Translations under genes and position numbers: made by a program
The notes under the pieces: model-generated
Databases searched by the model: none
What the model was told of the DNA's origin: nothing
What the model saw: only the letters and a program-made list of their open reading frames with translations
Part shown: piece by piece, positions 36,163 through 54,852 of the stretch
How positions within the stretch are numbered: the first letter of the stretch is position 1
How the letters are laid out: each line of letters opens with the position of its first letter
From: a virus
Length of the DNA: 64,000 bases
Virus record (IMG/VR): IMGVR_UViG_3300025459_000003
Span: 1 to 64,000 of that record
Strand: one strand, 5' to 3'

Positions 36163-38178
36163 ATGCCAAGGGGAGAGCGATTCAGCAAGCGGGAGTCGGT
36201 GTTCGGGAAGGCGGTCGAGGGCATCATCGAGAGCGCCCCCAAGATCCTCAACGCCATAGACTTCATCGAGTCCCGGCAGGGGCTCAACGTCAAGCTCTTC
36301 CCCGTGCAGCGCCTCCTGACCAAGTGCGTCTTCGGCATCCCCATGGACTACAAGATGGGGATGGTGCCGTTCTACGACGTGTTCCGCGAGAAGCTCATCA
36401 GGACGGTCACGGAGGTCGAGGCCCTCCACATATTCTTCGAGGAGGGCCGCTGCAGCGTGGGCGACTGGAGGGACATCCCCGAGCGGGGGTACAACGAGGC
36501 GTGCATCATCGCCGGCCGGCGGGGAGGAAAATCTCAGTGGGTGTCGGCGACCGCGTCCTACAAGCTCTACTGCCTGCTCAACCACAAGAGCCCCCAGGAC
36601 TACTTCGGGCTGGTCCCCGGCTCCCCCATCGACTTCACCTTCCTGGCCCAGGACGACACGGGGGCGACAAGGCTGTACGACAAGCTGCGCGAGGACGTGA
36701 ACCGCACGCCGTTCTTCAGCCCCTACCTGAAGGCCAGCAGCGGGACCTGGCTGGGCTTCGTCACGGAGTCCGACAGGGGCAAGAGGGACGTGACCCCCAC
36801 GATCAACTGCGAGTCCCTGCCCTGCACCACCAACAGCGTCCGCAGCCCGTCGTCCGTCTTCCTGGCGCTCGACGAGTTCGCCCACTTCCGGTCGGAGAAG
36901 GGCTCGTCCTCGGACGAGGTGTACGCCGCCGCCACGCCCAGCACCCTGAACTTCCACCACGCCGAGCTGCCCAACGGCGAGTGGATAAGCGGCGACCAGA
37001 TGAGGGCGCTGCAGCCGGAGGAATACAGGGAATACCAGGACTCCATGGTCGTCTCCATCTCGACGCCCTGGACGAAGGTCGGCAAGATGTACGACCTCCA
37101 CAAGCTGGCCATGACCAAGGGGAACGCCAGCGGCATCTTCACCCTCAGGGTCAGCACGGCGGAGATGAACCCCTTCGTCCTCCCCAAGGTCCTGCACGGG
37201 GAGTACGAGAAGAACCCCATGACGTTCAAGGCGGAGTACGGGGGGCAGTTCCTCGACTCCTCCGAGAGCTACGTCACGGAGGCGCAGATACGGGCGTGCA
37301 CGGACGTGCAGTACACCGAGGGGGAGATGCCGGTGCCGAGGCCCGAGACCGCCAGGCTCAACCTGACGAGGTTCGTCCCGTCGTGCGTCGGGCGCAACTA
37401 CTTCTGGGGGGTCGACCTCGGCATGATGAAGAACGCCACGGGCGTCGCCATCGGGCACCTGGAGCACCGGGGCGGCAAGAACCCGATAGAGCTGGTCTAC
37501 GACTACATCGACCGCATGATGGTGGGGGAGAGGTTCGACGGGCCGGGCGTCGAGGAGATTCCGGGGGTCGTGAAGTACGTGGGGTACCGGGCGCTCCCCC
37601 TGGAGGACGTCGTGATGTGGCTGCGGGCGCTCAACAGGGTGATGCCGTGCTTCCGCGGGGCGACCGACCAGCACGGCGGCCAGGCGCTCGTCCAGCTCCT
37701 GGAGATCAACCAGATATACAACATCGAGCTGCTCAACCTCACCACCGTCATCAATTCCCAGATGGCGTTCGCCCTCAAGGGCTACATGGACAACCGGAGG
37801 TGCAGGTTCCCGTACGTCCCCAAGTTCATGGACGAGATCCGCCTTGTGGAGGCGGAGTTCGTCGGGAAGTACCAGATCAGGGTGCAGGCCCCGGCCGAGA
37901 AGGGGGCCACGGACGACATGACGGACGCCGTGCAGGAGGTGGCGTACGTCGCCCAGAAGTGGCTCGTGGAGGAGGGGGGGCTCGCCCAGGACCCCGCCGG
38001 GGCCAGCCTCGCCCTCCAGGAGCAGATGTCCAAGCCCGCCGCCCCCCTCCTCTCGCTCGACAGCCTCGCCATGACGGAGATCAAGACGCTGGAGAGGCTG
38101 CACAGGCTGCAGCGGGGGCTGATGATGACCCCCGGCACGGTGGTGGTGAGGGACCCGTTCCGCCGCCGCAGGCGGTGA
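36163..38178 (+). CDS. terL: Terminase large subunit (DNA-packaging ATPase/nuclease)
   Basis: 671 residues, start with CAGGAGAACC. ATPase half: an adenine-binding region near FPVQRLLTK, Walker A AGRRGGKS (about 128-135), Walker B LALDEFAHF (about 234-242), and a coupling motif SISTPWTK. Nuclease half (RNase H-like): FWGVDLGMMK, then ATDQHGGQ, and DDMTDAV near the C-terminus supply the acidic residues. The enzyme packages the genome into the prohead and cuts the concatemer. Length is typical for large terminases of big myoviruses. No small subunit is recognised next to it. It is the first rightward gene after the leftward early-type run. Confidence 0.9.
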   Translation: MPRGERFSKRESVFGKAVEGIIESAPKILNAIDFIESRQGLNVKLFPVQRLLTKCVFGIPMDYKMGMVPFYDVFREKLIRTVTEVEALHIFFEEGRCSVGDWRDIPERGYNEACIIAGRRGGKSQWVSATASYKLYCLLNHKSPQDYFGLVPGSPIDFTFLAQDDTGATRLYDKLREDVNRTPFFSPYLKASSGTWLGFVTESDRGKRDVTPTINCESLPCTTNSVRSPSSVFLALDEFAHFRSEKGSSSDEVYAAATPSTLNFHHAELPNGEWISGDQMRALQPEEYREYQDSMVVSISTPWTKVGKMYDLHKLAMTKGNASGIFTLRVSTAEMNPFVLPKVLHGEYEKNPMTFKAEYGGQFLDSSESYVTEAQIRACTDVQYTEGEMPVPRPETARLNLTRFVPSCVGRNYFWGVDLGMMKNATGVAIGHLEHRGGKNPIELVYDYIDRMMVGERFDGPGVEEIPGVVKYVGYRALPLEDVVMWLRALNRVMPCFRGATDQHGGQALVQLLEINQIYNIELLNLTTVINSQMAFALKGYMDNRRCRFPYVPKFMDEIRLVEAEFVGKYQIRVQAPAEKGATDDMTDAVQEVAYVAQKWLVEEGGLAQDPAGASLALQEQMSKPAAPLLSLDSLAMTEIKTLERLHRLQRGLMMTPGTVVVRDPFRRRRR

Positions 38179-40067: not shown

Positions 40068-42041
40068 ATGGGAACCATCCGCATAATCGACCCCTCGTCC
40101 GGCTCCATCGTCACGCTCGACGGCATCGTCGTCACGTGGGTGAAGACGTACAATCCCACCGTCGCCTACAGCCTCGGCCATGCGGTGAGCTACGCCAACG
40201 GCTCCTGGATTTCCCTGAAAAATGGTAACGTGGGGAATGTTCCCGCGTCCGGCTCGTCCTGGTGGGGACTAATCGCCGAGGGAGCCCAGGGCCCGACCGG
40301 GCCGACTGGCTACACAGGACCTACGGGTTACACCGGCTATACCGGCCCGACCGGTCCAACAGGATATACCGGCCCTACCGGCTATACCGGCCCCATCGGT
40401 CCCACGGGGCCGACGGGTTACACGGGATATACCGGCTATACTGGTCCTGATGGACTCCCAGGCTCCGCCGGACCCACCGGGCCCACAGGCTTCACTGGGC
40501 CAACGGGCTTCGTCGGGTCGCAGGGCGACAAGGGCGGGCTTCGCTACTACTTCGACGCAGGCACCGGCCCTGCGGGCCTGAACAATGCAGGGGAATTGCG
40601 CCTGAACAACTCCTCCCCGGCCTTCGCGACGCACCTCTACATGTACCAGTGGGACGTCGTCCCGAACGACCAGATTTTCTACCTGTTGCAGTGGAACAAC
40701 GGGTATGTGGAGATCGAAGAAAATTCGAACCTGGTCCCCGGCTTCCTGAACTTCCTGGCCACGGGCGTAGTCTACCTCGGGGCTGGCGTCATCGACATAT
40801 CCGTGTCCTACCTGTCGGGCACCCTGCCGTCCCAAAACGACCAGCTTGTCGTGAACTTCAGCCCCCTCGGGCCCGTCGGCCCCACCGGGCCGGGAAACTT
40901 TACTGGCCCTACCGGATACACGGGCCCTTCCGACGGTCCCATAGGCCCCACGGGCTTCACCGGCCCGACGGGGCCGGGGGGCGGGGGATCCAGCAACTTC
41001 ATCGCCGTCTCCCAGCCCACCCACGGGTTCGCCACCGGGCAGGCCGTCTATTTCGACGGCGTCATCTGGCGGCTCGCCAAGGCCAACGATGCCGACACCT
41101 TGGCAATCGCCGTCGTCAGCTACGTCAGTGCGGACGCCTTCGACGCCTACCTGGAGGGGGAGATCGACGGCCTGTCCGACCTCGTGCCGGGGGAATACTA
41201 TTTCGTCAGCGACTCCTCGGCGGGGGCATTGACGATCACCGCCCCGACCGACCCGGCGAGCTTTGTCAACCCCATCCTGTTCGCCCTCTCGGCGACCACG
41301 GGGATAGTCCTTCCCTACCGCCCGACCGACAACGCCGTGGCACCGGCAGGGCCGACCGGCCCCACCGGCTATACCGGCCCGACCGGGCCGACAGGCGACA
41401 CGGGCCCGACAGGCTACACGGGCTACACGGGCCTCGGCGACACCGGCCCGACCGGGCCGGGCAGCTTCACCGGCCCGACTGGCTATACGGGCCCTTCCGA
41501 CGGTCCCATCGGGCCGACCGGCCCCACGGGGCCGGGGGGCGGGGGAGGAAGCCCCCTGACGTTCTTCGGGGACTACTCCCATACCTTCGGCTCCAACTCC
41601 TTCGGCGTGCAGCAGGACGTCATCAAGGTCAGCTACCCCATGTCCCTGCCCGCCCTGTCGGTCTCCAGGCTGGAGATCAACATAATCTCGGCGGACAGCA
41701 ACGCCTCCCACTACTACGACTTCGGCATCTACGACCTGGCCGGGAACCTGGTAGCGGACACGGGGCCCATCAACGTCCCGTCCACGGGGGCGATGGACAT
41801 CCCCCTCGTCCAGGGGACGGTGGCAATCGCTGCGGGACCGTACCTGTTCGCCATAACGGGCAATGCGGGGACGGTCTTCCTGGCGAGGACCAACATGAGC
41901 GGGGCGTATTCCCTGCTGTATTGGCAGACCGCGACGGCGTCCTCCGGGGGGCAGTTGCCCGCCACGATTTCCCTCTCGGCGTCGGCGTCGACCCTGGATG
42001 CATACGGGGACAGCTATTCGCCCATCTTCCTGCTCCATTAG
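40068..42041 (+). CDS. Collagen-like tail fibre protein, 657 aa
   Basis: The start is at ATG 40068 (AAGGGGTAGA upstream); the ORF extends to a TTG. After a 75-residue adhesin-like head, there are three Gly-X-Y collagen-like blocks ([10 protein letters not shown] units, about residues 78-157, 275-310 and 435-500), separated by beta-rich globular domains, and a C-terminal beta-jelly-roll-like domain ([29 protein letters not shown]). Collagen triple helices trimerise fibres and present receptor-binding tips. Likely a host-recognition fibre. The repeat DNA is almost identical across blocks, so unequal recombination could change fibre length. Confidence 0.8.
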
Positions 42042-42050
42042 TGAGGCAAC

Positions 42051-42857
42051 ATGGCGCTTTCTGCGGCAAGCAAAATCCAGGGCCCCCTCGGCCCGACCGG
42101 CCCGACCGGCTATACCGGCTATACTGGCTATACGGGCCCCTCAGATGGCCCCATAGGCCCGACCGGCCCCACGGGGCCGGGGGGCGGGGGCTCGTCCTGG
42201 CCCTACGTCAACCTCGTCCCAGTCCCCCCCGACCTGGCCGGATGGGGGTGGGTAAACCTGCCCGGCGCGTCGGAAAACCTGACCAACGGCGTCCTGACGC
42301 TCTCCACGACCTCCACGGGGGGCTACCAGATGCACTGGTTCGGGCAAGCGCTTCCGGCCCCGCCCTGGACGGTGATCTGCGCCTACGCCCCTCCGGGCCC
42401 GTTCTATTCCATGTCCACGGACGTCTACTCCGCCCAGAGCGGGAACTGGTACGACGGGCTGTGCCTGTGGAACAGCGACACGTCGTTCCTCTACCTGAGC
42501 CACTGGCTCGGCGGCCAGATGGGGATGACCATCGAGTCGTACAACGAAACCCCGGGCCTGTCCCCCCCGTACAGCGACCCCGGCTTCGTGGTCGGCGGGC
42601 ATGACGTGACGAGCGGCTTCCCGCCGTTGATCTGGTACAAGGCCCACTTCGACGACGTCACCTACGACATCTACACGTCCCTTGAGCCCGCGAGCACGGG
42701 ATGGCTGAGGATTTGGTCGGCGACGCACCACACCTTCCTCGGGGACGGCACCCCCAAGTACAACCATGCGGGATGGGCCATCAACACGGGCAACATGGAG
42801 GCGGGCCACGACTTCACGGGCGGGGCGGTCCTGTCGTGGAGCGTCACGGATTCCTAG
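42051..42857 (+). CDS. Second collagen-like fibre protein, 268 aa
   Basis: Follows by 9 bases, with GAGGCAAC before the ATG. It has a short collagen segment ([17 protein letters not shown]) followed by a single C-terminal domain with a beta-jelly-roll, lectin/concanavalin-like pattern (MHWFGQALPAPPWTVICAY, DVYSAQSGNWYDGLCLW, WLRIWSATHHTFLG). The collagen block shares DNA with the upstream gene, indicating duplication. Likely a shorter co-assembled or alternative receptor-binding fibre. Confidence 0.75.
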   Translation: MALSAASKIQGPLGPTGPTGYTGYTGYTGPSDGPIGPTGPTGPGGGGSSWPYVNLVPVPPDLAGWGWVNLPGASENLTNGVLTLSTTSTGGYQMHWFGQALPAPPWTVICAYAPPGPFYSMSTDVYSAQSGNWYDGLCLWNSDTSFLYLSHWLGGQMGMTIESYNETPGLSPPYSDPGFVVGGHDVTSGFPPLIWYKAHFDDVTYDIYTSLEPASTGWLRIWSATHHTFLGDGTPKYNHAGWAINTGNMEAGHDFTGGAVLSWSVTDS

Positions 42858-42923: not shown

Positions 42924-42947
42924 AAGGAAGCTCTTGCTTCCTTTTTA
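42924..42947 (+). terminator. Terminator after the fibre genes
   Basis: Stem AAGGAAGC (42924-42931) and GCTTCCTT (42936-42943) with a TCTT loop, followed by T residues. It closes the terminase-to-fibre operon. Confidence 0.8.
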
Positions 42948-43050
42948 GCCGCGGGACCAGGGGAGACCCGCGATAGGGTTCCCCGCACGCGGCAACAATG
43001 CGGCGGCGGCCAGGCCGGGACTTGGTCGCCGCCGACCTTCCTTGCCTTCC

Positions 43051-43728
43051 TTAGACGTCTCTCTTTGCTTGCCGATAAAGCACGCCGCCGAGCCCGAGCA
43101 GGCCCGACCCAAGGAGCAGCAGGCTGCCCGGTTCAGGCGTGGCTCCCTGATTGCCGAGGACCACGAATGCATCGGAACAGGTGCCGCCACCGGGGAAGAA
43201 GGATGGGCAGACATCGGGCGTGACGTAGCCGATCGCGCTCGACCACGCCGCCGAGGGGCCGTTGTTCATGTCCCAGAGCGCGGGGTCGCCGGGAACGCTA
43301 GTGGTTGCGTCGTAGAGCGTCAGCCAGTATGTTCCGGCATCCAGGTCGACCGGGCCCGTGCTGAAATCGTTGACATAGATGTCGAAACCGATATAGTTGG
43401 TGAACTCAAAGTAGTCGGTCGTGGCGGAAAAACCGCTGGCTTTGTTGGCGTTGCCGGGGCTGGTGCCGATGCCCCACCCAATCGAGGTCATGGAGTCGCC
43501 GAGGTACGCCCAAGAAGCAATCTCGATATCCAGCACGGTTCCCGGGAAGGCCAAGGAAAACGAGTTCGAAACCGCATAGTCACGGTTGATGACCCCAACG
43601 TTGTGGGTGCCGTAGTAAAAAGAGTTGCCGCAGTACAGGCACACCTCGGGAGGCGAGGCGTGACCGGGCAGCGGTTTCGCACCAATCGAAGAGGCACTGA
43701 CTACGCTCGCCAAGGCCAAACACAGCAC
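43051..43728 (-). CDS. PEP-CTERM exosortase-substrate protein 1
   Basis: The GTG at 43728 gives 225 residues. The frame continues upstream to an ATA at 43761 that lies 6 bases after GAGGAGA and would complete a normal signal peptide (basic RNAR, then FALLIVLCLALASVVSA). The mature part is beta-rich with CLYCGNSF near the start. The C-terminus has all parts of a PEP-CTERM sorting signal: TPEPGS, a hydrophobic helix (LLLLGSGLLGLGGVLY) and a basic tail RQAKRD. In bacteria exosortase recognises this signal and sends the protein to the cell surface or exopolysaccharide. Such genes are unexpected in a phage. Confidence 0.75.
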   Translation of the reverse strand: MLCLALASVVSASSIGAKPLPGHASPPEVCLYCGNSFYYGTHNVGVINRDYAVSNSFSLAFPGTVLDIEIASWAYLGDSMTSIGWGIGTSPGNANKASGFSATTDYFEFTNYIGFDIYVNDFSTGPVDLDAGTYWLTLYDATTSVPGDPALWDMNNGPSAAWSSAIGYVTPDVCPSFFPGGGTCSDAFVVLGNQGATPEPGSLLLLGSGLLGLGGVLYRQAKRDV

Positions 43729-43806
43729 GATGAGCAGCGCGAAAATCCTTGCATTTCTTATGAGCAGTCTCCTCGCTTAAATTAGACGTAGCTTCCCGAC
43801 AGCCCT

Positions 43807-43835
43807 ATAATACACCATTTCCTACTTTCCTTGCA
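43807..43835 (-). promoter_or_regulatory. Candidate promoter for PEP-CTERM gene 1
   Basis: Minus-strand GTGTATTATAGGG (minus-10 at 43807-43812) resembles the spacer end and minus-10 of the early promoters. The minus-35 is not clear. It would start RNA about 40 bases before the gene. Confidence 0.35.
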
Positions 43836-44469
43836 TGTTTCTTTTTGTCAGCCCATAGAGCACTGCTCCTATGCCGAACAGGCCCGACCCCAGGAGCATC
43901 AAGGTAGAAGGCTCGGGCACCGGGGCAGGGGGATCGGCAAGGAACTCCTGGCTGGAGCCCAGGTCGACGGGCGTCAGGACGACGAAACCGGGAAACTCGC
44001 CTGACCAATATGGCATTTGCGGCTCTTTCGCCGCTATCAGCCACGCCGCTGCATTAGCATCCAATCCTCCCTGCAATTTGGGGTCGGTATCGGCCCAGAT
44101 CGCATAGGTTATGTCGTTGGACTGGGACGGATTTAGGTTGAGCTGTTCGACCAGCCATGCCAGCTCGCTGTAGAGGTCGAACGTCGCATGGGGGGAGCCC
44201 CACTGAAATTCCGCGTCAACGAGGCCGTCCACGGTGATTGGCGAGACGTAGGCGTCCCATCCAGGGGAAACCTCGTCCAGGAAGTCGTCGCAATAGATGT
44301 CGATCTGCGGGCCTCCGTTGATGGTGCCGTAGTAGGGATCGGTGTAGTACCCTCCCTGGTTGGCCCCGTTTGGGCCGATGAAGCCCACCCGGACCGTGTC
44401 TGCGGCGGCGGACAGGGAGAATAGGATCGTCACGACGAACAGCAGTAGGGCATAGGAATGTCTTTTCAT
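43822..44469 (-). CDS. PEP-CTERM exosortase-substrate protein 2
   Basis: 215 residues from ATG 44469 (AGGAGAGTGAC upstream). Signal peptide MKRHSYALLLFVVTILFSLS with cleavage near AAADT. The body has IDIYCDDFLDEVSPGW, LAWLVEQLNLNPSQSNDITY and NAAAWLIAAKEP, which match a widespread PEP-CTERM family in soil and biofilm bacteria. The C-terminus has PVPEPST, a hydrophobic helix (LMLLGSGLFGIGAVLYGL) and the basic TKRN tail. The protein would be secreted, anchored and processed by the host exosortase. It differs in sequence from protein 1, so the pair is not a recent duplication. Confidence 0.8.
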   Translation of the reverse strand: MKRHSYALLLFVVTILFSLSAAADTVRVGFIGPNGANQGGYYTDPYYGTINGGPQIDIYCDDFLDEVSPGWDAYVSPITVDGLVDAEFQWGSPHATFDLYSELAWLVEQLNLNPSQSNDITYAIWADTDPKLQGGLDANAAAWLIAAKEPQMPYWSGEFPGFVVLTPVDLGSSQEFLADPPAPVPEPSTLMLLGSGLFGIGAVLYGLTKRNMQGK

Positions 44470-44505: not shown

Positions 44506-44535
44506 ATAATACACGTTTTTTGGATTTTTTGATGG
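44506..44535 (-). promoter_or_regulatory. Candidate promoter for PEP-CTERM gene 2
   Basis: Minus-strand CGTGTATTATGGG (minus-10 at 44506-44511) preceded by an A-rich tract with AATCC. It shares the GTGTATTAT core with the element at 43807. No strict minus-35 is seen. Confidence 0.4.
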
Positions 44536-44573: not shown

Positions 44574-46343
44574 TCAGCGCACGAGGAAAAGTACCTTGGT
44601 GCCCTCGGGCGTCTCCACCTTCTCCTCCACGTAGTCCGGCATTATCCTGCGCAGCTCCATGTGGTAGGACGACCCCATCGGGCATATCGCCGCCACCCTG
44701 AACCCCCTGGCCACGGCATGGTTGACCTTGGCCCCGAGCAAATTCTTCCGCCAGTTGGGATCGGGCCTTCCCTGCGGCCAGGGCGGCCCCGCGATCGGAC
44801 GGGGCAGGGTGGGCACGGGGGGGCGTCCCGGGGCGGTCCTGGGGCCGCCCTGGAGCCACGGCGCGCCAATCCTGACGCCCGTCCCGGGAACGGGGAGATA
44901 CTTCCGCTTGAACTGCTCGTAGAGGCAGTCCTTCGGGTAGGAGGCGTCCCTGTCCAGGTTGCGCCCCCCCGCCCACTTCCCGCACCAGTTGTTCCTCACG
45001 AGGTGGACGGCCCTGCTGCCCGTCGGGACCTGGACGGGCGGGCCCACGAACGCGTAGGCGGGGGGGTTGAACGAGAAGTACGAGGGCAGCGACGGGAGGG
45101 CGAAGTGCCGCACCGCCTCCGTCAGGAGGTTCGGGCCGATGTCGGACCATTCGATCCTCTTCCAGTCCTTCTCCCGGCACTTCTCGATGAGCCATGCCAT
45201 GACGCGGGAGCCGGCCGGGGCCCTCATGCAGTCCCCGTTTATCTGGTCCTTGTGCCCGCTGTCCGGGTACTGGTTCACGAAGACATGCTCGTCCTTGGCG
45301 TCGAACGGCCTCACGCACACCGTGTCGGTGTCGACCCACCAGCCCCCCTTCTGGAGGAGCAGGTGGTAGCGGAACCAATCCGAGAAGTTCGTCAGGTTCT
45401 GGAACTTCTCGATGTCGGCCTCCGGCACCACCTCGTTCGCGTCCATGACCGCCGTGCCCTCGGGCACGTCCCTGCACGGCCCGTACGTGTAGAGGTGGAA
45501 CTCGTCCCCGTGGTGGAGGTAGGAGGCTATCGACAGCCTCTCCATCGTGGTGAGGCGGGCCCCGACCCACAGCGACTGCATGACGTTGCGCCCCTCCCTG
45601 TCGAGGTAGCGCTGCCTGAGCTGCTCGTAGGGGCTCCCCGGGGGGAAGACGCCGTCCTTGTCCATCCCCGTCCTCCCCCACATCTCGTTCCAGAGGTGGA
45701 CGGCGTAGGACTCGTCGGTGAGGTCGAACGTCGCCCCCGCCATGACCAGCTTCCTCACCTCCCATGCCATGACGGGGCAGAACGCCTGCGGCGGCAGGAC
45801 GTGCTGCCGGAGGCCGAGGGCGTCCACGGCGCTCTCGACGAGGGCGGGGCCGCTGGCGGCCCAGGGGATCTTCGCCACGTCCATCTCCCGGCACTTCTTC
45901 CAGCAATAGCCCATCGCCGAGCTTCCCGCTGGGACCTTGATGATCCCGTTGTTGACCTGCGTCCCCACGAACTTCATCGTCCCCTTGACGCTCGTGGCCT
46001 TGACCTCGCTGGAGAACACGTAGTCCTGCGCCATGTCGAACGGGCGGAGGCAGACGGTGTCGGTGTCGACCCACCACCCGCCCCTGTCCAGGAGCAGCTT
46101 GTAGCGGAAGAAGTCCGAGAATATGGCGGGCTTGGAGAAGTCCTTGTGGTGGAGGGAGGAGAGGGGGAGGACCTCCGCGGCGTCCTTCATGACGACCCCG
46201 GGCGGCACCCCCTCCACCCTGTCGTAGGCGTAGAGGTGGAACTCGTGCCCGTGGCGGAGGAAGGAGTTCAGGGCCGTCCGCTCCATCGTGGAGAGCCTGG
46301 GCCCGAGCCAGAAGCCCTGGATTACGCGGTTGTCCTCTCTCAT
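44574..46343 (-). CDS. Tandem-duplicated DXD glycosyltransferase, 589 aa
   Basis: Two successive glycosyltransferase units in one chain. Each contains a TMERxxxxSxLxHGxEFHLY start and GGWWVDTDTVCxRPFD, with the DXD metal/sugar-nucleotide motif at about residues 93-95 and 334-336. This is the GT32-like (Gly_transf_sug, DXD) pattern. The copies are clearly related in DNA as well as protein, so an internal duplication produced a bifunctional or processive enzyme. A proline-rich linker and a small C-terminal domain follow. The start ATG overlaps the upstream stop (ATGA). It would transfer two sugars in the same glycan pathway as the neighbours. Confidence 0.7.
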   Translation of the reverse strand: MREDNRVIQGFWLGPRLSTMERTALNSFLRHGHEFHLYAYDRVEGVPPGVVMKDAAEVLPLSSLHHKDFSKPAIFSDFFRYKLLLDRGGWWVDTDTVCLRPFDMAQDYVFSSEVKATSVKGTMKFVGTQVNNGIIKVPAGSSAMGYCWKKCREMDVAKIPWAASGPALVESAVDALGLRQHVLPPQAFCPVMAWEVRKLVMAGATFDLTDESYAVHLWNEMWGRTGMDKDGVFPPGSPYEQLRQRYLDREGRNVMQSLWVGARLTTMERLSIASYLHHGDEFHLYTYGPCRDVPEGTAVMDANEVVPEADIEKFQNLTNFSDWFRYHLLLQKGGWWVDTDTVCVRPFDAKDEHVFVNQYPDSGHKDQINGDCMRAPAGSRVMAWLIEKCREKDWKRIEWSDIGPNLLTEAVRHFALPSLPSYFSFNPPAYAFVGPPVQVPTGSRAVHLVRNNWCGKWAGGRNLDRDASYPKDCLYEQFKRKYLPVPGTGVRIGAPWLQGGPRTAPGRPPVPTLPRPIAGPPWPQGRPDPNWRKNLLGAKVNHAVARGFRVAAICPMGSSYHMELRRIMPDYVEEKVETPEGTKVLFLVR

Positions 46344-46906
46344 TTTCGATCCCTGTAAATCCTCACTATGTCGTCCTTCGCCTCGAATTCCCAGCCGGGG
46401 GCCATGCCCAGGACGTAGCTCCTCAGGTCCGGCAACGAGGGGTACGGGGTGGGCGCACCCTTGAACTCCCTGGCATCGTCGATCAGGATGGCGCAGTCCG
46501 GGCAAAAGGAGAATATGGTCCTCAGTTCCTCCAGTATGGGGGTGTCGACCTTTCCCCGAGCGGTTATGCCCATGGACCAGTGGGCATCCAACCAGAACAG
46601 GAGCCTTTTGCCCAGGGAAGGAAGCACCTCGCCCAGGACCTCCCCGCTATCCCCCCAAAAAAGGTGAACCTTCGGGTTTCCCTTGAAAGTCTCCTGCGCC
46701 TTCCGGTAGAGGTCGGCCCCCAGCTCCACCGAGTAGATGTCGGAAAAGTGCGGCAGCATGGCGGAGACGGTGATTCCCAGGTACGTCCCGGTCTCGAAAA
46801 GGGCGTCGAGCCCGAACCTTCTGGCATGCTCCACGATGGCGGCGTGCTTTACGGGGTAGCCCCAGTCTGCGGGGGTGTCCCGGAACCCGATCATGGCCTC
46901 GTCCAT
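46340..46906 (-). CDS. SAM-dependent methyltransferase-like protein, 188 aa
   Basis: ATG 46906 with GGCTGGAGGACAG upstream. The core is a Rossmann methyltransferase pattern: LFETGTYLGITVSAMLPHF (motif I), YSVELGADLYRKAQE (motif II), LLFWLDAHWSM and ILIDDAREFKG. It resembles small sugar or FkbM-type methyltransferases, though the motif I Gly pattern is atypical. It overlaps its neighbours by a few bases, so it is co-translated with the glycosyltransferase genes. Probably caps or decorates a glycan. Confidence 0.6.
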   Translation of the reverse strand: MDEAMIGFRDTPADWGYPVKHAAIVEHARRFGLDALFETGTYLGITVSAMLPHFSDIYSVELGADLYRKAQETFKGNPKVHLFWGDSGEVLGEVLPSLGKRLLFWLDAHWSMGITARGKVDTPILEELRTIFSFCPDCAILIDDAREFKGAPTPYPSLPDLRSYVLGMAPGWEFEAKDDIVRIYRDRK

Positions 46907-47622
46907 CTGTCCTCCAGCCCATAGTCCACCCTCAGGATGGTCTCGGGCGCGTCCGACCCGAAGGTCAGGAAGTTGTTCAGGGTGTAGACCATCCCCAGCC
47001 TGTGCGCTATTACCGACGCCGCGGACAAGTCGTGCCTGTGCCCCAGCACTCGCGGGTCGGAGGATGCTGCCCCGCCTGCATTGTCCCACGGGCCGTAGAA
47101 GGAGCCGTTGTTGGCCGCCTCCATCCACTGCGACAAAAAGCTGCGGGCGACCTCCTTCTCAAGGTCCAGGCCCAGGGAGTGGGTGGCCAGTTTCGGTATC
47201 CCGAACGATTCCTCGCGGGTTACGTTGAGCAGGGGGAGGGCGGCATCGCTAATCCATTCCCCGGCGACCCACAGAGGCCTGCCGTTGAGCCACGGGGCGC
47301 TGGCGAGCCAGTATCCGGTCCCCTCCATCAGCTCCCATATCGGCAGGAGCGGACGGACCGCCACGACCGACGCGTCCGCCCAGAGGACTGACGTGAAGCC
47401 CGCGTCCGCCGCCGCTTGCATGGCATAGACCTTTGATGCATAGGGGGCGTCTTCCGGTGTCGGGCAGCCCATGGGGACGCCCCCCTTGTAGACCAGCAGC
47501 GCCACGTCGCCCCCGTTCCTGAGGAAGCCGGACGTCCACCGTCTTAGCCTGTCCGAGAGATGCCCGGGACGATGCCTGTCGGCCACCGGGGCGGTCGTCA
47601 CGATTGCCCTTCTTACCTCCAT
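46891..47622 (-). CDS. Glycosyltransferase-like protein, 243 aa
   Basis: The N-terminal half has a Rossmann-like strand (RRAIVTTAPVADR), a helix, and FTSVLWADASVVAVRPLLP where the D-A-S after a hydrophobic strand matches a GT-A metal-binding site. The C-terminal half has GYWLASAPWLNGRPLW and a conserved GPWDN. It resembles GT-A proteins of phage and capsule clusters without a firm family. ATG 47622 has GGGGAGAATGGAACA upstream. A sugar-transfer role is inferred. Confidence 0.55.
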   Translation of the reverse strand: MEVRRAIVTTAPVADRHRPGHLSDRLRRWTSGFLRNGGDVALLVYKGGVPMGCPTPEDAPYASKVYAMQAAADAGFTSVLWADASVVAVRPLLPIWELMEGTGYWLASAPWLNGRPLWVAGEWISDAALPLLNVTREESFGIPKLATHSLGLDLEKEVARSFLSQWMEAANNGSFYGPWDNAGGAASSDPRVLGHRHDLSAASVIAHRLGMVYTLNNFLTFGSDAPETILRVDYGLEDRWTRP

Positions 47623-47655
47623 TGTTCCATTCTCCCCGAACGTTTCGGCGTATCC

Positions 47656-48867
47656 CTAAAGGCCCACGTTTTCGTCGTTCAATGCGGACTCCCTCCGATG
47701 GATGCCCTGAAGCTTCTCCACCAGGCCCCAATGGTCGTCCAGGCTGGCAAGCAGGCGTATCATGGCCTCCTTGAGGGCCCCCTCCGTCCTTTTCAGGTCC
47801 GGCGAGAAGTCGTGCTTGGGCATGATGTCCAGCATGGCATTGAAGGCCCTATGGCTATTCAGGATGTGGGGCGAACCCCAAAGCTCTGCGGTGGGTTCGT
47901 AGATGGGGTTGCCCGCCCTGTCCGTGTCCAGCACCCTTGGATGGGAGGCGCTGTTTATCCCCTCCATGTAGCCGGGGTGCCGGGAGGACGACGTTTCCTC
48001 CACCCCTACAAAGAACCGGACGTTGCCGGCCAGGGGCTGCAACGCTCCCGACTCGGGGTACCTTGCCACGATGCGTATCGGGGCATCGGGGTGCCTGGTT
48101 TTTTCTGCCAGGTATGCCAGGCTTCTCCCGAACCCGCCGAGGTCGGCCATCACCGGGCGGTCCCCCATGATGGCTTCCGTGTAGGCTATGTGGCCGGGGG
48201 AGGCCCTCTGCCTGGCTATCCGGCTGGTAAGGTAGTAATGCACCCGGTAACCTCCCCCCGCCAGCCTTCCGAACCTTTCCATGAGGCTGCTCCACAGGCA
48301 GCAGTCCCGGCTGGACATCAAAAGGTCCGTGGCATTCCCGGCATCCCTGTGCAGGAGCACGCTCGCCGCGAACAGGAACGGGAAGTTGAGCTGGGACTGG
48401 AGCAGCTCGTGCCCGCGGTATTCGGGGCTGTACATGGTCAGCCTGCCCTCCCGGCAGCACCTCGCCAGCCCTTCGAGACCCACATGCTCCCCCAGCCATG
48501 CCTCCATCGGGGTCATCCCGGCCTGGGTGGCCCTGATCGCTCTTATTCCCGCCCCTTCCGCCGACTGTACGTCGGACAGGAGGTTGTCCCCCGTGTGCTG
48601 CCTTACCGGAGGCAGCGTCTTCCATATGGAGCCGTCCCGCTTCCCCCCCTCCGTCACGAAGAGGCGGTTGGGAAGCCCCGCCACCTCCCTGAGCAGCCTT
48701 TCCGCCTTTGCCGGGTCGTAGTAGTCGCTGACCACGATGTCTTCGGGGCGCACCATCGCTATGTTCTCGGCAATGGGAAAGTGCCCTTCCTGGTTCCCGG
48801 CGGCCACTTTGGGGTTCCTGCCCGCCACGAGCGTGTCGAACAAGTCCCAGGACGAGACGTTGCACAT
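47656..48867 (-). CDS. HAD-like protein of a surface polysaccharide type, 403 aa
   Basis: The start MCNVSSWDLFDTLVAGR places D-x-F-D-T near residue 8-12, the nucleophile motif of HAD-superfamily hydrolases, and HTGDNLLSDVQSAEGAG supplies the distal acidic motif (about 91-107). The C-terminal 250 residues are helical and resemble large proteins found with HAD domains in capsule or O-antigen loci. It could be a phosphatase for a sugar phosphate or a scaffold. It lies between glycosyltransferases and methyltransferases in one operon. Confidence 0.55.
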   Translation of the reverse strand: MCNVSSWDLFDTLVAGRNPKVAAGNQEGHFPIAENIAMVRPEDIVVSDYYDPAKAERLLREVAGLPNRLFVTEGGKRDGSIWKTLPPVRQHTGDNLLSDVQSAEGAGIRAIRATQAGMTPMEAWLGEHVGLEGLARCCREGRLTMYSPEYRGHELLQSQLNFPFLFAASVLLHRDAGNATDLLMSSRDCCLWSSLMERFGRLAGGGYRVHYYLTSRIARQRASPGHIAYTEAIMGDRPVMADLGGFGRSLAYLAEKTRHPDAPIRIVARYPESGALQPLAGNVRFFVGVEETSSSRHPGYMEGINSASHPRVLDTDRAGNPIYEPTAELWGSPHILNSHRAFNAMLDIMPKHDFSPDLKRTEGALKEAMIRLLASLDDHWGLVEKLQGIHRRESALNDENVGL

Positions 48868-48877
48868 GATCCATTCC

Positions 48878-49432
48878 TTAAAGGCTTCTCTTTATGACCC
48901 CCAGGCCGAACTTCCCCGGAAGTATCTCCGCCTGCCAGCCCGTCCTGGCCACAAACTCGTCGTATGCCCTTCTGGGGTCCCCCCATTCCCACCCGTAGCC
49001 CCTGGTCGTTTCGGGGGATACCTCGGGGGCAACGTCATGCATGAGGACAAGGCCCCCCGGCCTGACCCGATCCGAATAGCACAGGTCGCTGCTCACGAAG
49101 GGGTAGCTATGGTTGCCGTCTATGAACAGGATATCCAGCAGGGGCGGGAGCTTCGCCGATACCGCCTCCCTCTCCCTGCTGTCGGAGAGTATGAAGGTCC
49201 AGTCGGGATGCCCTTCGAACATCGACAATGCCCCGCATTTCGGGTTTATGTCCACGCTGTACAGATGGCCGCCGTTCCGCTCTACCCCGAGGAGGAAGGC
49301 GGATGTGGAAACCCCATTCTGGACGCCTATCTCCAATATGTCGCCACGGGCATGTTCGAGGAGCCAAGGAGAGTAGTCCCACATGTCCGTCCAGTGATTA
49401 AGATTGGCGTCATACCTTTCTTTTGGTGTCAT
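48878..49432 (-). CDS. Class I SAM-dependent methyltransferase, 184 aa
   Basis: The ATG at 49432 is preferred; a GTG at 49474 would add 14 residues. Motif I is DILEIGVQNGVSTSAFL, followed by LYSVDINPKCGAL, then DWTFILSDSRE and LDILFIDGNHSYPFV (DGNHS is typical of sugar O-methyltransferases of the cephalosporin/TylF-like group), and VRPGGLVLMHDVA. It likely methylates a hydroxyl on the glycan made by the cluster. Confidence 0.65.
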   Translation of the reverse strand: MTPKERYDANLNHWTDMWDYSPWLLEHARGDILEIGVQNGVSTSAFLLGVERNGGHLYSVDINPKCGALSMFEGHPDWTFILSDSREREAVSAKLPPLLDILFIDGNHSYPFVSSDLCYSDRVRPGGLVLMHDVAPEVSPETTRGYGWEWGDPRRAYDEFVARTGWQAEILPGKFGLGVIKRSL

Positions 49433-49460
49433 TACAGCAGTGTCCCTCCCGTAATCCTCT

Positions 49461-50015
49461 CTATCTCCTCCCACGGAGCCCTTCCTCCTGAATCACCAGA
49501 AGGCAACTGTCGTCGTTCCCGGCAGGGTGCCTGGACAGGGGAAACTTGACCAGGAAGGACTCATAAGGAATGGCTGCCTTTAGCCTTTCCATGTTTTTGG
49601 GGCGGACGTCTTCCACCACATACAGCCCGTTGGGGGAAAGGAACGGGATGAGGGCGAGGGCGACGAGGGTCTGGTGCTCCAGCTCGTGCTCACCATCATC
49701 AATGATTACGTCTAGGTTTGTACCCATTGCTCTGGCCGCTGCCTCCAAGCTCTTACAATCCAACTGGTCGCCCCGAAAGCACCTTATCCTCCCTTCATCA
49801 AAGAGGCAGGACGGTTCTATGTCCACGCCGAATACCTCGGCATCGGGAAGGTACTCCGCCCACATCCTTAGGCTGGCTCCCTTGTACACGCCTATCTCCA
49901 GAAGCCGCCCGACGTGCCTTGGGGAGAGCAGCGCGGCGTAAAAGGGGGTATAGTTGTGCCCATCCGGCCCTTTGTCGGTGCCGTACTTCCCAGCAAGCTC
50001 ACATAGCTTTGTCAT
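49461..50015 (-). CDS. Class I SAM-dependent sugar O-methyltransferase, 184 aa
   Basis: It starts ELAGKYGTDKGPDGHNYTPF, a signature of MycE/ElmM-type sugar O-methyltransferases, with motif I RLLEIGVYKGASLRMWAEYL, then FGVDIEPSCLF, DVIIDDGEHELEHQ and LYVVEDVRP. These enzymes methylate sugar hydroxyls and usually bind a metal via the IIDD and VED acids. Overlaps the upstream epimerase gene by 17 bases. It shares overall plan with the gene at 51641 and may be a paralogue. Confidence 0.7.
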   Translation of the reverse strand: MTKLCELAGKYGTDKGPDGHNYTPFYAALLSPRHVGRLLEIGVYKGASLRMWAEYLPDAEVFGVDIEPSCLFDEGRIRCFRGDQLDCKSLEAAARAMGTNLDVIIDDGEHELEHQTLVALALIPFLSPNGLYVVEDVRPKNMERLKAAIPYESFLVKFPLSRHPAGNDDSCLLVIQEEGLRGRR

Positions 50016-50952
50016 GGTCTTTTTCCTTTGCCCTGGGGTGCGCCAGCGCGTCCCTCAGTGCCTGTTCGAGGCTTTCCCTCGGCTGCCATCCATAGCGGTG
50101 CCGCATTCTGGAGTTGTCCGCCGCAAGCATGGGACGGTCTACCGCCCTTTGGTGCTGGGGGGAGGATACGCACTCGATGCTTTCCCCGAGGATGGCGGAA
50201 AGCACCTTGACCACCTCGACGGGGCTCCACGCCCTCCCCGTCCCCAGGTTGCAGGTATCGACGGAGTCGCCTATTCCCGAGACCATCCGGACGATTCCCC
50301 TCGCCACGTCCCCGGCGTGTACGTAGTCCCTCTTCGACTCCAGGTTCCCGACCTCGATCCGCCTTGAGACCTTCAGCCTTTCCAGGATTTCGGGGATGAG
50401 GTGCGGGTTCGTCTCGTATGCCCCCACCACGTTGAAGATGCGCCCGACCGCAAACCTGCATCCGCTCCGGGAGGCCGCCTCCTGCACCTGCTGCTCGTTC
50501 CTTATCTTGCAGAGGCCGTAGGTGTCCATCGCCCCCAGGCTGTCGGTCTCTACATGCGGCGTCAGGGAGCTTTTGTATACCGCCGCCGTGGAGGCAAGGA
50601 AGAACCGCTCCGCCCCATTGGCTACGGCGGCATCGAGGACGGCCTGGGTCCCGTCCACGTTGGTCCTCCACGCCTCCTCGGGGTGCTCGTTGCAATAGGG
50701 GATGTAGTGGAGCGCCGCAAGGTGTACCACGATGGACGGCTTGACCGTCCCCATGACCCTCTCGAACTCCGGCGAGAGGATGTCCAGTTTCAGGAACTCG
50801 ACCCCCTCCGGGGGCTTCCCCGCCCGCCATCGGCATAGCTTGTCCGCTACCACGATCCTCGAAAACCCCCCTTTGACCAGCTCCAGCAGGAGGTTCGTCC
50901 CGATGAACCCGCATCCCCCGGTAATCAGGAACCCGCTGTCCGTCGGTATCAT
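49999..50952 (-). CDS. NAD-dependent sugar-nucleotide epimerase/dehydratase
   Basis: 317 residues from ATG 50952 (50955 is an adjacent alternative), with the start overlapping the upstream stop. Extended SDR fold: NAD-binding GGCGFIGTNLLLEL, VVADKLCRW, catalytic YGLCK (Y-x-x-x-K), SSTAAVYK-type Ser region (LASTAAVYK) and RIFNVVGAYE. It acts on a nucleotide sugar such as UDP- or GDP-hexose; the exact product cannot be read from sequence. It supplies a donor for the surrounding glycosyltransferases. Confidence 0.75.
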   Translation of the reverse strand: MIPTDSGFLITGGCGFIGTNLLLELVKGGFSRIVVADKLCRWRAGKPPEGVEFLKLDILSPEFERVMGTVKPSIVVHLAALHYIPYCNEHPEEAWRTNVDGTQAVLDAAVANGAERFFLASTAAVYKSSLTPHVETDSLGAMDTYGLCKIRNEQQVQEAASRSGCRFAVGRIFNVVGAYETNPHLIPEILERLKVSRRIEVGNLESKRDYVHAGDVARGIVRMVSGIGDSVDTCNLGTGRAWSPVEVVKVLSAILGESIECVSSPQHQRAVDRPMLAADNSRMRHRYGWQPRESLEQALRDALAHPRAKEKDHDKAM

Positions 50953-51659
50953 CATATCCCCCTGTACACCCAGCTCGGGTCGAAAAGCTCCTGCCAGTTG
51001 CTTACGTCGATGCCCAGCTTGTCGCCAAGCTCCCGCAGTACGAATATGGCGTTCCCGCCCCCTCCCCAGCACGGGGCCACCTCCGGCGGCCTTGGGCTTG
51101 CGGTGTGCAGGGCCAGCTCGTAGCCCTTGCGTTTTGCCAGCTCCACCATGGACGAGATGGAGGCCCCCCTGCGGTCGTCGCCCTTCTCGCCCGTTGGACC
51201 TTTCTCCGGGATCATCCGTTCTCCGGGGGGGACGGCCGAAAAGACCTCTATCACCATGACCCGGGGACGGTAGGATTCCAGGGACTCCCAGAGGAAGAAG
51301 TCGTCTCCGTCCACGTCGAGGGACAGCAGGTCGAAGTCTTTCGGCAGTCCGGTCGACCTTAGGATTTCCTCGAAGTTGCCGGGCGTCACGAGGGCGTTGA
51401 TTAGGGTCGCCTTGAATGCCGACATGTTCTTCTCAAGCTGGTCGAATTCCCGCTTCTGGCATTCGATGAGGACTCCGGACCACCCGCGCTGGGCTACCAG
51501 GGCATGGGTATTGGACCATGTCACCCCATCCAGCGCCCCGAGTTCGCAGCACCATTTGTTGGAGACGCCGACCCTTTCGAAAATGGCCTCCAGGACGCCG
51601 TCTTCCCCGCTTTGGCTGGTGACGTTCCTCCTTAGCGAATTCAGCCAGATGCTTGACAT
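50952..51659 (-). CDS. FkbM-family-like methyltransferase, 235 aa
   Basis: Start with GGAGGCGGACCCCC. Typical FkbM/DUF opening SQSGEDGVLEAIFERVG, then WCCELGALDGVTWSNT (motif I), WSGVLIECQKREFDQLEKN, FDLLSLDVDGDDFFLWESL and RVMVIEVFSAVPPGE. The family methylates sugars or other secondary metabolites, often in capsule or LPS loci. Ends by overlapping the epimerase start. It probably acts in the same pathway. Confidence 0.7.
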   Translation of the reverse strand: MSSIWLNSLRRNVTSQSGEDGVLEAIFERVGVSNKWCCELGALDGVTWSNTHALVAQRGWSGVLIECQKREFDQLEKNMSAFKATLINALVTPGNFEEILRSTGLPKDFDLLSLDVDGDDFFLWESLESYRPRVMVIEVFSAVPPGERMIPEKGPTGEKGDDRRGASISSMVELAKRKGYELALHTASPRPPEVAPCWGGGGNAIFVLRELGDKLGIDVSNWQELFDPSWVYRGI

Positions 51660-52243
51660 GGGGGTCCGCCTCCTATGGTCTCTCCCCTTATCACTATCAG
51701 CTGGTCGCTGATGTATTTTTCCAGGTTGAAGCTCACCAGCTCGTGCCTGTAGGGAAGGTTGGGAACCACCTTGTCCGGTGCCCATACGTCTTCGATGATG
51801 TAGAGCCCGTCGGGCTTGAGCAGCAGGGGGATGAGGACGACGGCCGACAGCACCTGGTGCTCGGGGAGGTGGGAGCCGTCGTCTATCACGATGTCGAACC
51901 CCCCGCCCAGCTTGGCCGCCGCCGACCGCAGGGATTCCTCGCTTCCCTGATCGCACTGGAACGACCTGATCCTCCCCTCGTTGATGAGGATGTCCTCGCG
52001 GATGTCCAGGGCGTATATCTCCGCCTCGGGGAAGTACTCCTGCCACATGAACAGGCTCGCCCCGGACCTGTAGTTCTCCCCCACCGTGTAGCACATGGTT
52101 TCGGGGTACCCGATGCCTATTTCCAGCAGCTTCTTGACGTTCCTCCCCTTGAACATCTCGTAGTAGTAGGGCGTGTAGCCGTGGCAAATCGAGGGAACCT
52201 TGTCGGTCCCCCACTTGGCGGCAATCTCGCAAAGCGGCGTCAT
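51641..52243 (-). CDS. Class I SAM methyltransferase, paralogue of the gene at 49461
   Basis: 200 residues from ATG 52243. The sequence repeats the plan EIAAKWGTDKVPSICHGYTP, LLEIGIGYPETMCYTVGEN, SLFMWQEYFPEAEIYALDI and FDIVIDDGSHLPEHQ, VWAPDKVV, all as in the MycE-type enzyme downstream. Motif I is less canonical (GIGYPE rather than GVYKGAS). It overlaps the next gene by 19 bases. It probably methylates a different sugar position. Confidence 0.65.
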   Translation of the reverse strand: MTPLCEIAAKWGTDKVPSICHGYTPYYYEMFKGRNVKKLLEIGIGYPETMCYTVGENYRSGASLFMWQEYFPEAEIYALDIREDILINEGRIRSFQCDQGSEESLRSAAAKLGGGFDIVIDDGSHLPEHQVLSAVVLIPLLLKPDGLYIIEDVWAPDKVVPNLPYRHELVSFNLEKYISDQLIVIRGETIGGGPPCQASG

Positions 52244-52407
52244 GCCCTCGTCCACCTTTCCGGTATCCTGTCCGGGGATTCCGGGGAGCCATCGGCCAGC
52301 CATCGCTTGGGGGCGACCCTCGTCCGGTTGCCGATGTTCGCCCTTATGTCGAACACGAGGTCATCGCGGCCCATGAACTGCGAATAGAAGCCCGCCATGG
52401 TTTCCAT
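52240..52407 (-). pseudogene. Chimeric remnant: methyltransferase N-terminus joined to glycosyltransferase C-terminus
   Basis: A short ORF starting METMAGFYSQFMGRDDLVFD reads like the start of an FkbM-type methyltransferase, with motif I altered (DIRANIG instead of DIGANxG). It then continues RVAPKRWLADGSPESPDRIPER, which parallels the C-terminus of the GT11-like gene just upstream (CIAPRRWLGPAAAFLDTKDIAPER). DNA similarity (CCATCGCTTGGGGGCGA and CCATCGCCTGGGGGCGA) supports descent from a second GT11 copy. An internal deletion probably fused two former neighbours. Confidence 0.6.
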
Positions 52408-52412
52408 CTTTC

Positions 52413-53240
52413 CTACCCTATCTTCATCCATCTTTCCGGAGCAATGTCCTTGGTATCAAGGAACGCCGCGGCCGGGCCTAACCATCGCCTGGGGGCGATG
52501 CACGTCCTTCCGGGCCTCGTGTCCCCCAACCACGCGCCCCACCACGAGAAGGAACTGTTGGCGATCACGCCATGGCTGCAGAGGCCCATCAGCCATATGT
52601 CCTCGTGCTCCTTGCCGGGCACGTCCGACCCGAACAGCCTTCCTCCCGGCTTGTTGTGGTCGACTACCCGGAGGCCGGGAAACGCCTCCTTGCACCATGC
52701 GGGGTCGTCCGAAAACACGAAGAACTCGGCGTTTCCCACCCTCTCCTTTATTATCGACATGGCGGCCGAGTAGTAGTCCATGCCCAGGTTGGTGTGGTAT
52801 TCTTCCTGGCCCACGTAGTCGGTCCTGCGGACGTGCAGGAAGGCGCTCCTTTCCTCGCAGCCGAGGATTTCCCTTGCCACGGCCTGGGATGCCCCGCTCA
52901 GTTGGTTTTCCGGGCTGCGGAGCGAGAATGCATCCCTCACCAGCGGCACGTCGAAGTACTTCTCGGTCTGCCACTGCCCGTCGAAGGATGCCCATTGCTT
53001 GTCGTAGACTCCCGGATCGAAGGCATATGTATGATTCCATTCGTAAAAAATGGGAGCGGGCATCTCGGAAACGAAGGTTATCGGGACGTCGAACACCCCG
53101 AGCGCATAGCATCTTTTCAGGTCGGAATCCGGGATGTCCCGGGTAAAGGAAAGCGCCTCGCCCCTGGCCTTGGACACCGATATTCCGAAAGCGTACTGGA
53201 ACATCTGGTTGCCCAGGCCGCCCTTGAGCAGGACTACCAT
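52413..53240 (-). CDS. GT11-type glycosyltransferase (alpha-1,2-fucosyltransferase-like)
   Basis: 275 residues from ATG 53240 (GGAGG upstream). The N-terminus VLLKGGLGNQMFQYAFGISV is the GT11 signature, HVRRTDYVG is motif I (HxRRxDY), and NAEFFVFSDDPAWCKEAF and GVIANSSFSWWGAWLG are the donor-binding motifs. GT11 enzymes transfer L-fucose from GDP-fucose. Because GDP-mannose 3,5-epimerase is encoded 647 bases away, GDP-L-galactose, a close analogue, may be used instead; that is inference. The gene shares a DNA-level 3' end with the neighbouring remnant. Confidence 0.8.
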   Translation of the reverse strand: MVVLLKGGLGNQMFQYAFGISVSKARGEALSFTRDIPDSDLKRCYALGVFDVPITFVSEMPAPIFYEWNHTYAFDPGVYDKQWASFDGQWQTEKYFDVPLVRDAFSLRSPENQLSGASQAVAREILGCEERSAFLHVRRTDYVGQEEYHTNLGMDYYSAAMSIIKERVGNAEFFVFSDDPAWCKEAFPGLRVVDHNKPGGRLFGSDVPGKEHEDIWLMGLCSHGVIANSSFSWWGAWLGDTRPGRTCIAPRRWLGPAAAFLDTKDIAPERWMKIG

Positions 53241-53884
53241 AGGGATTTTGCCTCCTTGTAGGCATCGAACATCTGTTCCGGAAGGTACGCCCTTTTCCAT
53301 CCACCCACCGATGAAAGATGGCAGGAGATGGTGTCCTTGGCGGGCACGGAGCCCGGGTAGAACTGGTACCTTGCGTCGTCGTGCGGGGATATCCCGTGCT
53401 TCGCCAGCGTGTCCGCCACGAAAACGTCCTCCGGCCCCCCTCCCGGCCACGGCTCGGCGGCCGCGACCAGCTCCATCGCCCTCCTGCTCAGGCAGTATCC
53501 CGATCCCCCGCTGGCGAAGATCACGGGGGGGCATTCCCGGTTCACGCCCCCGACGTAGTCGTGCTGCTCGAACCCGCTGCTGGCGAGGTTGGACGGGACG
53601 ACCAGGGTGTCGATGTCCGCCTTGTACACGTGGTCGAATCCCTGGCCCAGCGCCCACCCCACGATGCCCCTCGTCTTCAGGAGCAGGCCCATATAGTCGT
53701 CCGGGACGTCGAGGAAGACCTCGTCCACGCAGATGCGGTCCGGCGGGGGGTTCCCGAGGAAGAACCGGCAGTCCCATTCCGAGGAGGGGGGCACGTCTCG
53801 TATCCAGGTCTGCCTCTGGGCGTCCTGCCATCGCCTGTGCCTGTGGCAGCTCAGGATTGCTATGAGGGTGCGTCCCGGGCCCAT
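53234..53884 (-). CDS. GT31-like glycosyltransferase, 216 aa
   Basis: It starts two bases after the upstream TAG (TAGGCATG). The layout matches small GT31-type (galactosyl/fringe-like) enzymes: LIAILSCHRHRRWQDAQRQTW, WDCRFFLG, then the DXD strand DHVYKADIDTLVV, HDYVGGVNRE, SGGSGYCLSRRAMELV and PEDVFVADTLAKHG. The protein lacks a signal peptide, so it acts in the cytoplasm on the same glycan. Some lineages of large phages have such enzymes for virion or DNA glycosylation. Confidence 0.65.
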   Translation of the reverse strand: MGPGRTLIAILSCHRHRRWQDAQRQTWIRDVPPSSEWDCRFFLGNPPPDRICVDEVFLDVPDDYMGLLLKTRGIVGWALGQGFDHVYKADIDTLVVPSNLASSGFEQHDYVGGVNRECPPVIFASGGSGYCLSRRAMELVAAAEPWPGGGPEDVFVADTLAKHGISPHDDARYQFYPGSVPAKDTISCHLSSVGGWKRAYLPEQMFDAYKEAKSLW

Positions 53885-53886
53885 GC

Positions 53887-54852
53887 CTATCCTTTCGCCC
53901 TGGCCATCGCCGTCACCCATGCGTAGGTCTTCCCGAGGCCGTCGATCAGGGGGGCCGAGGGGGCCCACCCCAGCTTCTGGTGGATCAGGCGGTTGTCGGA
54001 GTTGCGTCCCCTGACCCCGAGCGGGCCGGGGACGTGGCGGATGCCCAGGTCCTTGCCAGCGACCTTCATGACCATGCGGGCGAGCTCGTCTATCGTGACC
54101 ATCTCGTCCGAGCCGATGTTCAGGGGCCCCGGAAGGCCCGACCGCACCAGCCGCCTGATGCCCTCCACGCACTCGTCGATGTAGAGGAAGGACCGGGTCT
54201 GCCTCCCGTCGCCGAAGATTTCTATCTCGCCCCCCTCGGGGGCCTGCGCCACCTTGCGGCACAGGGCGGCCGGCGCTTTCTCCCTTCCCCCCTCCCACGT
54301 GCCCTCCGGGCCGAAGATGTTGTGGAACCTGGCCACGTGGATGGGGACGTAGTAGTTCCTGTGGTAGGCCGCATAGAGCCTCTCGCTGAACAGCTTCTCC
54401 CACCCGTACTCGCTGTCCGGCGCTGCCGGGTAGGCGGAGTCCTCGGCGCAGTTGGGGTTGTCCGGGTCGACCTGGTTGTGGGCCGGGTAGATGCAGGCCG
54501 AGCTGGAGTAGAAGTACCTCCCGACGCAGTGCTTCTGGCCGACCTCCAGCATGTTCAGGTTGATGGTCGCGGAGTTGTGCATGATGGCGGCGTCGTTGTC
54601 CCCGCTGAACACGTACTGCGCCCCTCCCATGTCGGCGGCAAGCTGGTAAACCTCGTCGAACCCGCCGTTGAGCGCCGCCCAGCAGGACGACGTGTCCCTG
54701 AGGTCCCGCAGCAGGAACTCGTCCGCCGCCGACGGGCAAAACTCGTGCTCCTTGATGTCCACCCCGCGGACCCAGTACCCCTCCAGCTTGAGCCTCTTCA
54801 CCAGGTGGCCCCCGATGAAGCCCCCTGCCCCGCATACCAGCGCTTTCTTCAT
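53887..54852 (-). CDS. GDP-mannose 3,5-epimerase-like enzyme
   Basis: 321 residues from ATG 54852 (GGAGGGACGAC upstream). An extended SDR: NAD-binding ALVCGAGGFIGGHLVKRL, YQLAADMGGAQYVFSG, YSSSACIYPAHNQ, catalytic YGWEKL (Y-x-x-x-K) and IHVARFHNIFGPEGTW. The SSACIYP and YGWEKL arrangement is typical of GDP-mannose 3,5-epimerases, which make GDP-L-galactose or GDP-L-gulose. Length agrees with the family. It sits next to GT11-like and GT31-like transferases that could use the product. Confidence 0.75.
   Translation of the reverse strand: MKKALVCGAGGFIGGHLVKRLKLEGYWVRGVDIKEHEFCPSAADEFLLRDLRDTSSCWAALNGGFDEVYQLAADMGGAQYVFSGDNDAAIMHNSATINLNMLEVGQKHCVGRYFYSSSACIYPAHNQVDPDNPNCAEDSAYPAAPDSEYGWEKLFSERLYAAYHRNYYVPIHVARFHNIFGPEGTWEGGREKAPAALCRKVAQAPEGGEIEIFGDGRQTRSFLYIDECVEGIRRLVRSGLPGPLNIGSDEMVTIDELARMVMKVAGKDLGIRHVPGPLGVRGRNSDNRLIHQKLGWAPSAPLIDGLGKTYAWVTAMARAKG

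Follow-up and report, generated by a model that had tools for sequence, protein, structure and literature searches.

Phages are known to equip the host envelope with lipoproteins and with membrane proteins, and to our knowledge the phage envelope proteins known so far, e.g., Llp of T5 and others that act in superinfection exclusion or receptor blocking, are of these two kinds and not exosortase substrates. In bacteria, the substrates of exosortases (EpsH, Xrt) carry a signal peptide and a C-terminal PEP-CTERM tag (PF07589, TIGR02595), i.e., the PEP motif followed by a hydrophobic helix and a basic tail; Sec export, cleavage and sorting to the outer surface have been proposed for them, and they have been connected with exopolysaccharide loci (Haft et al. 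2006, PMC1569441). Here, we report two genes, A and B, encoding proteins of this tag class in a 64,000-nucleotide window (positions 1 to 64,000) of an IMG/VR virus record, IMGVR_UViG_3300025459_000003, denoted G000 below. A and B have in common with the bacterial substrates (PMC1569441) the signal peptide and the PEP-helix-basic tail, and in both groups no internal membrane segment is seen and the ectodomains are diverse and without known homologues. Like Llp they are small proteins predicted to be exported, and a function in the envelope is what we infer for them. The earlier note did not know PEP-CTERM proteins as a described phage system, and our search agrees: the literature searched, which lay outside most subscription journals, yielded no account of PEP-CTERM proteins encoded by phages, and PHROGs contains no family matching them.

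Tags, starts and ectodomains of A and B

Both genes lie on the minus strand, A at 43,051 to 43,761 (236 amino acids, with a beta-rich ectodomain) and B at 43,822 to 44,469 (215 amino acids), and their products end in TPEPGSLLLLGSGLLGLGGVLYRQAKRDV and VPEPSTLMLLGSGLFGIGAVLYGLTKRNMQGK, respectively. The earlier reading of a complete tail in each holds in the profile searches that the earlier note had proposed: PF07589 scores 24.1 bits for A and 25.1 bits for B (curated cut-off 20.7), and TIGR02595 scores 17.9 and 19.3 bits (curated cut-off 16). A (E 4.8e-7) and B (E 4.0e-8) are the only PF07589 matches in the 157,656-bp record, and the same search of 14 control genomes returned none. The signal peptides, with an n-region, a hydrophobic core and an A-x-A-like end, were called by inspection together with an N-terminal helix predicted in the structural models of both proteins. 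By every sequence feature tested, A and B belong to the known PEP-CTERM tag class.

The signal peptide of A is present only with an ATA start. No good ATG or GTG start was found for this gene; the GTG at 43,728 lacks both the basic n-region and a ribosome site, and we therefore prefer the ATA at 43,761, a few bases after GAGGAG, as the likely start, giving MRNARIFALLIVLCLALASVVSA. If gene A does start there, it uses a rare start codon preceded by a strong ribosome site; the ATA may be such a start or a sequencing error.

Alignment of A with B is confined to the tails, and their ectodomains are unrelated to each other. The ectodomain of A matches the PEP-CTERM family NF038129 weakly, neither ectodomain has an annotated function, and the AlphaFold models (pLDDT 40 for A and 47 for B) are too poor for fold searches. 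Sequence searches of the PDB were empty or gave chance matches, and no near relatives of A or B were found among the IMG/VR records, plasmids and GTDB genomes searched. The family of gene B (with relatives P0003, L029 and L073) has an invariant cysteine (C-x-D) and a W/Q-rich motif. A thioester domain was considered for this family (C60; Q-x-x-I/M-W in the relatives, T in B) and dropped, as Pfam gave no support even at E 10.

Phage context and expression signals

Record G000 has 157.7 kb, 62% GC and 26 tRNAs. Over the full length, its tail sheath shares 48.5% identity with the sheath of Tunturi_5, a phage of Tunturiibacter. Tunturi_5 is a myovirus of 308.7 kb and forms clear plaques on the Acidobacteriota host used for its isolation (PMC11924767). 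The large terminase subunit (36,163 to 38,178, plus strand) is 45% identical to Tunturi_5 gp1 and 77% to its counterpart in a related jumbo contig, G050; PHROGs confirm the terminase and the major head protein, and the order of head and tail genes is similar between G000 and Tunturi_5. By the homology and similar order of its sheath, terminase and head genes, G000 falls in the Tunturi_5 lineage as part of the genome of a jumbo myovirus, and its host is probably an acidobacterium. No integrase (PF00589) was found in G000, in Tunturi_5 or in G016, a further relative described below, so lysogenic conversion is not favored for G000. G050 does have an integrase (G050:C1:61286-61750).

On the plus strand, two collagen-like tail-fiber genes (40,068 to 42,857; PHROG collagen-like minor tail for 42,051 to 42,857) run toward gene A up to a convergent junction. 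The G000 record end also runs into collagen-like repeats of this kind, which break assemblies. A likely terminator hairpin, AAGGAAGCTCTTGCTTCCTTTTT, lies between the fiber gene and gene A (42,924 to 42,950, plus strand) according to sequence reading and RNA folding; the fold of the region is not strong (z -2.1) and the hairpin is absent from the list of the consensus terminator scan. On the other side, an island of glycosylation and methylation genes (44,574 to 55,522, minus strand) encodes, by Pfam, a DXD glycosyltransferase, two Methyltransf_24 proteins, two epimerases, GT11 and GT2, and the abutment noted earlier is real.

The earlier note had also given the two genes promoter-like elements of their own. 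Such elements do precede both: the 157 kb contain just two copies of GTGTATTAT, in the right orientation on the minus strand, at 43,807 to 43,815, ~54 nt before gene A, and at 44,506 to 44,514, 45 nt before gene B. That the element is a promoter private to A and B was rejected, however, its core being found genome-wide: the 7-mers GTATTAT, TATTATG, GTATAAT and GTGTATA rank with those most strongly enriched upstream of genes across the contig, in a strand-specific manner, and related promoter-like cores also precede other genes and two large tRNA arrays. Since the core is common to these genes and arrays, A and B appear to use the promoter class of the phage contig. As an intergenic motif, GTGTA[TA][TA]AT is seen upstream of genes and tRNA arrays, e.g., at 29,543, 33,649, 43,815 and 44,514 of the window. 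Simple consensus patterns for a sigma-54 type -24/-12 motif gave no match upstream of A or B, which differ in this respect from the proteobacterial PEP-CTERM regulon with its PrsK/PrsR-associated sigma-54 motif (PMC1569441).

Recurrence of PEP-CTERM genes in viruses

Tunturi_5 itself encodes two PEP-CTERM proteins, gp97 and gp179, both annotated as hypothetical (PP885688; PMC11924767). They belong to the same jumbo lineage as A and B and have equally complete tails, but they sit at other genome positions, and their ectodomains are either diverged from or unrelated to those of A and B: gene B and gp179 align end to end at 28% identity (pairwise E 5e-11). G016 (231 kb, sheath 62% identical) likewise has two PEP-CTERM genes, one of them frameshifted. 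Homology of gp97 to the second G016 protein is suggested only by a hand-read motif, and BLAST aligned just the tails. The same frameshift is present in three contigs from different assemblies (L037 7200-7904, i.e., G016, and L093 and L096), which seem to be one virus. It may mark a pseudogene, genuine frameshifting or an error made repeatedly in sequencing. The PEP-CTERM genes of Tunturi_5 and G016 have helicase, recombination or NUDIX-like genes as neighbors and are distant from glycosyltransferases.

A tail sheath of the G000 type is found at 79 loci in IMG/VR. Among 49 sheath-bearing records, three have PEP-CTERM genes; these genes are not core genes of the lineage but accessory ones, because they are absent from the other 46 (one of which is a partial duplicate of G000).

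Beyond the lineage, IMG/VR was scanned for exact matches to a single degenerate tag pattern. The pattern matched 86 contigs, 82 of which (63 non-redundant) contain PEP-CTERM ORFs, nearly all with a signal peptide, and the ORFs form several families without common ectodomains. In many contigs of the largest family (28 proteins), the gene shares its strand with nearby large-terminase-like genes and SU10-type portal genes; in the subgroup with the EGAVRAGKTT motif, the terminase was called from motif and position, not from a Pfam or PHROG match. Across all families, a packaging gene lies within 6 kb of the PEP-CTERM ORF at 24 of the 82 loci (19 of the 63 non-redundant). In the terminase/portal-linked family, dN/dS is ~0.1-0.3 (0.10-0.27) in the lowest pairs, with dS saturated in many pairs; by these estimates the family is under purifying selection. 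One PEP-CTERM family, whose proteins start ...TITSFGN/IVGFGQ (L031, L064, L068, L051, L050 and others), is encoded next to terminase genes and SU10-type portal genes; a small lipoprotein and an ALITFLDG ORF rich in Pro are often close by, and the whole is possibly an envelope-directed phage cassette.

The search for an exosortase in related phage genomes, proposed in the earlier note, detected none in ~100 phage records, including G000, Tunturi_5 and 50 larger records with PEP-CTERM genes, several virus records being fragments whose unsequenced parts could hold the gene, and Tunturi_5 being complete. All 50 larger records have one to three PEP-CTERM genes. The phage proteins are virus-encoded, with no virus exosortase detected, whereas in bacteria substrates and EpsH are found in one genome. 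Because the phage records are without a detected exosortase, processing would need a host enzyme, and Acidobacteriota commonly have exosortases.

Proposed role and alternative explanations

We consider it probable that A and B are accessory phage cargo, i.e., exported exosortase substrates that are finished by a host enzyme and alter the envelope of the infected cell. Briefly, both genes would be transcribed in the infected cell from the phage-class promoter-like elements, the products would be exported by Sec and held in the inner membrane by the C-terminal helix, and the host exosortase would cleave them at the PEP motif and send them to the outer surface or the exopolysaccharide layer; the phage would contribute the substrates and the host the enzyme, and the most likely benefit would be an envelope altered in favor of the resident phage. 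This explanation is supported by the PEP-CTERM models over their cut-offs, the phage hallmarks of the contig and its kinship to an isolated Acidobacteriota phage; by the pairs of PEP-CTERM proteins in Tunturi_5 and G016, with gp179 homologous to B; and by the lack of a detected exosortase, the shared promoter-like core, the 82 viral contigs and the dN/dS of the terminase-linked family. It is weakened by the accessory distribution, by ectodomains without annotated function and by the poor structural models.

Remodeling of the surface of the infected host, as suggested earlier, is plausible. Masking of receptors, exclusion of other phages or keeping progeny from sticking to debris are, taken as one group of functions, the likeliest forms of such a benefit, though at well under even confidence. 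As judged from the sequences, what is new is the occurrence of virus-encoded substrates without a virus-encoded enzyme, in independent lineages and unnoticed in a cultivated phage. With somewhat less than even confidence, we suggest that phage-encoded exosortase substrates could represent a widespread, unrecognized strategy of host takeover, in which unrelated lineages each encode surface proteins for the host exosortase to finish and display, so as to exclude competitors or protect progeny. If so, the exosortase pathway would offer phages dedicated access to the outer surface of Gram-negative bacteria of the soil, a group difficult to study. Tunturi_5 is cultivated and has two such genes, which makes the idea directly testable, and for host prediction, phages with PEP-CTERM cargo should infect hosts that bear an exosortase.

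The accessory distribution would also fit an explanation that we regard as unlikely, namely that A and B are host genes hitch-hiking from Acidobacteriota DNA, carried only transiently and having little or no function. Not only are the genes patchy in the lineage, the ectodomains are mostly unrelated between phages, the frameshift of one G016 copy recurs in three contigs, and gene A is without a canonical start codon. Against passengers, however, stand the phage-class elements before both genes, the two PEP-CTERM genes held by each of three lineage members, and, in the terminase/portal-linked family, the low dN/dS of the lowest pairs together with a constant same-strand position. Phage genomes moreover purge unused DNA.

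The earlier note had linked the two genes with the adjoining island in remodeling the host surface. Spelled out as one unit, the PEP-CTERM proteins would be scaffolds decorated by the island enzymes, and both would jointly alter host exopolysaccharide. The island does directly adjoin gene B on the same strand, ~105 bp apart, and bacterial PEP-CTERM biology is linked to exopolysaccharide loci (PMC1569441), yet the case for coupling is weak, since in relatives either one is found apart from the other: G050 keeps the island, partly conserved, without PEP-CTERM genes, and the PEP-CTERM genes of Tunturi_5 and G016 are elsewhere than near glycosyltransferases. The island could serve the neighboring collagen-like fiber, i.e., it may act on virion fibers instead, and we judge the joint unit quite unlikely.

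If the tail were a membrane anchor or decoy only, serving retention in the inner membrane or flooding the host exosortase so as to block host sorting, tag and helix alone would suffice, and the lack of a detected exosortase in the phage agrees with this. Such a role is nevertheless improbable for A and B: the whole sorting tag including PEP has been kept, though a bare helix would anchor, and ectodomains of ~150-180 amino acids are unnecessary in a pure decoy.

An assembly chimera, i.e., a bacterial stretch joined to phage DNA, e.g., at the collagen-like repeats, is very improbable even though the junction needs care (an independent assembly matching G000 1-40,883 ends within these repeats, and 43.5 kb is spanned by no other viral contig), since the promoter-like motif class of A and B is common to the rest of the contig, the independently isolated Tunturi_5 also has PEP-CTERM genes, and the gene order of G050 equals that of G000 on both sides of the A/B site. 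This check, raised in the earlier note, rests on a contig with many head and tail proteins 60-95% identical to those of G000, in which the order of terminase, g045, g047, glycosylation island, g068 and g069 matches G000 at 36-58 kb. Because of this synteny on both sides, the A/B pair is, on the sequence comparison, an insertion within phage DNA and not the end of a bacterial contig. In G050, the g047 homologue directly adjoins a minus-strand gene of the island, with neither fiber nor PEP-CTERM genes between them.
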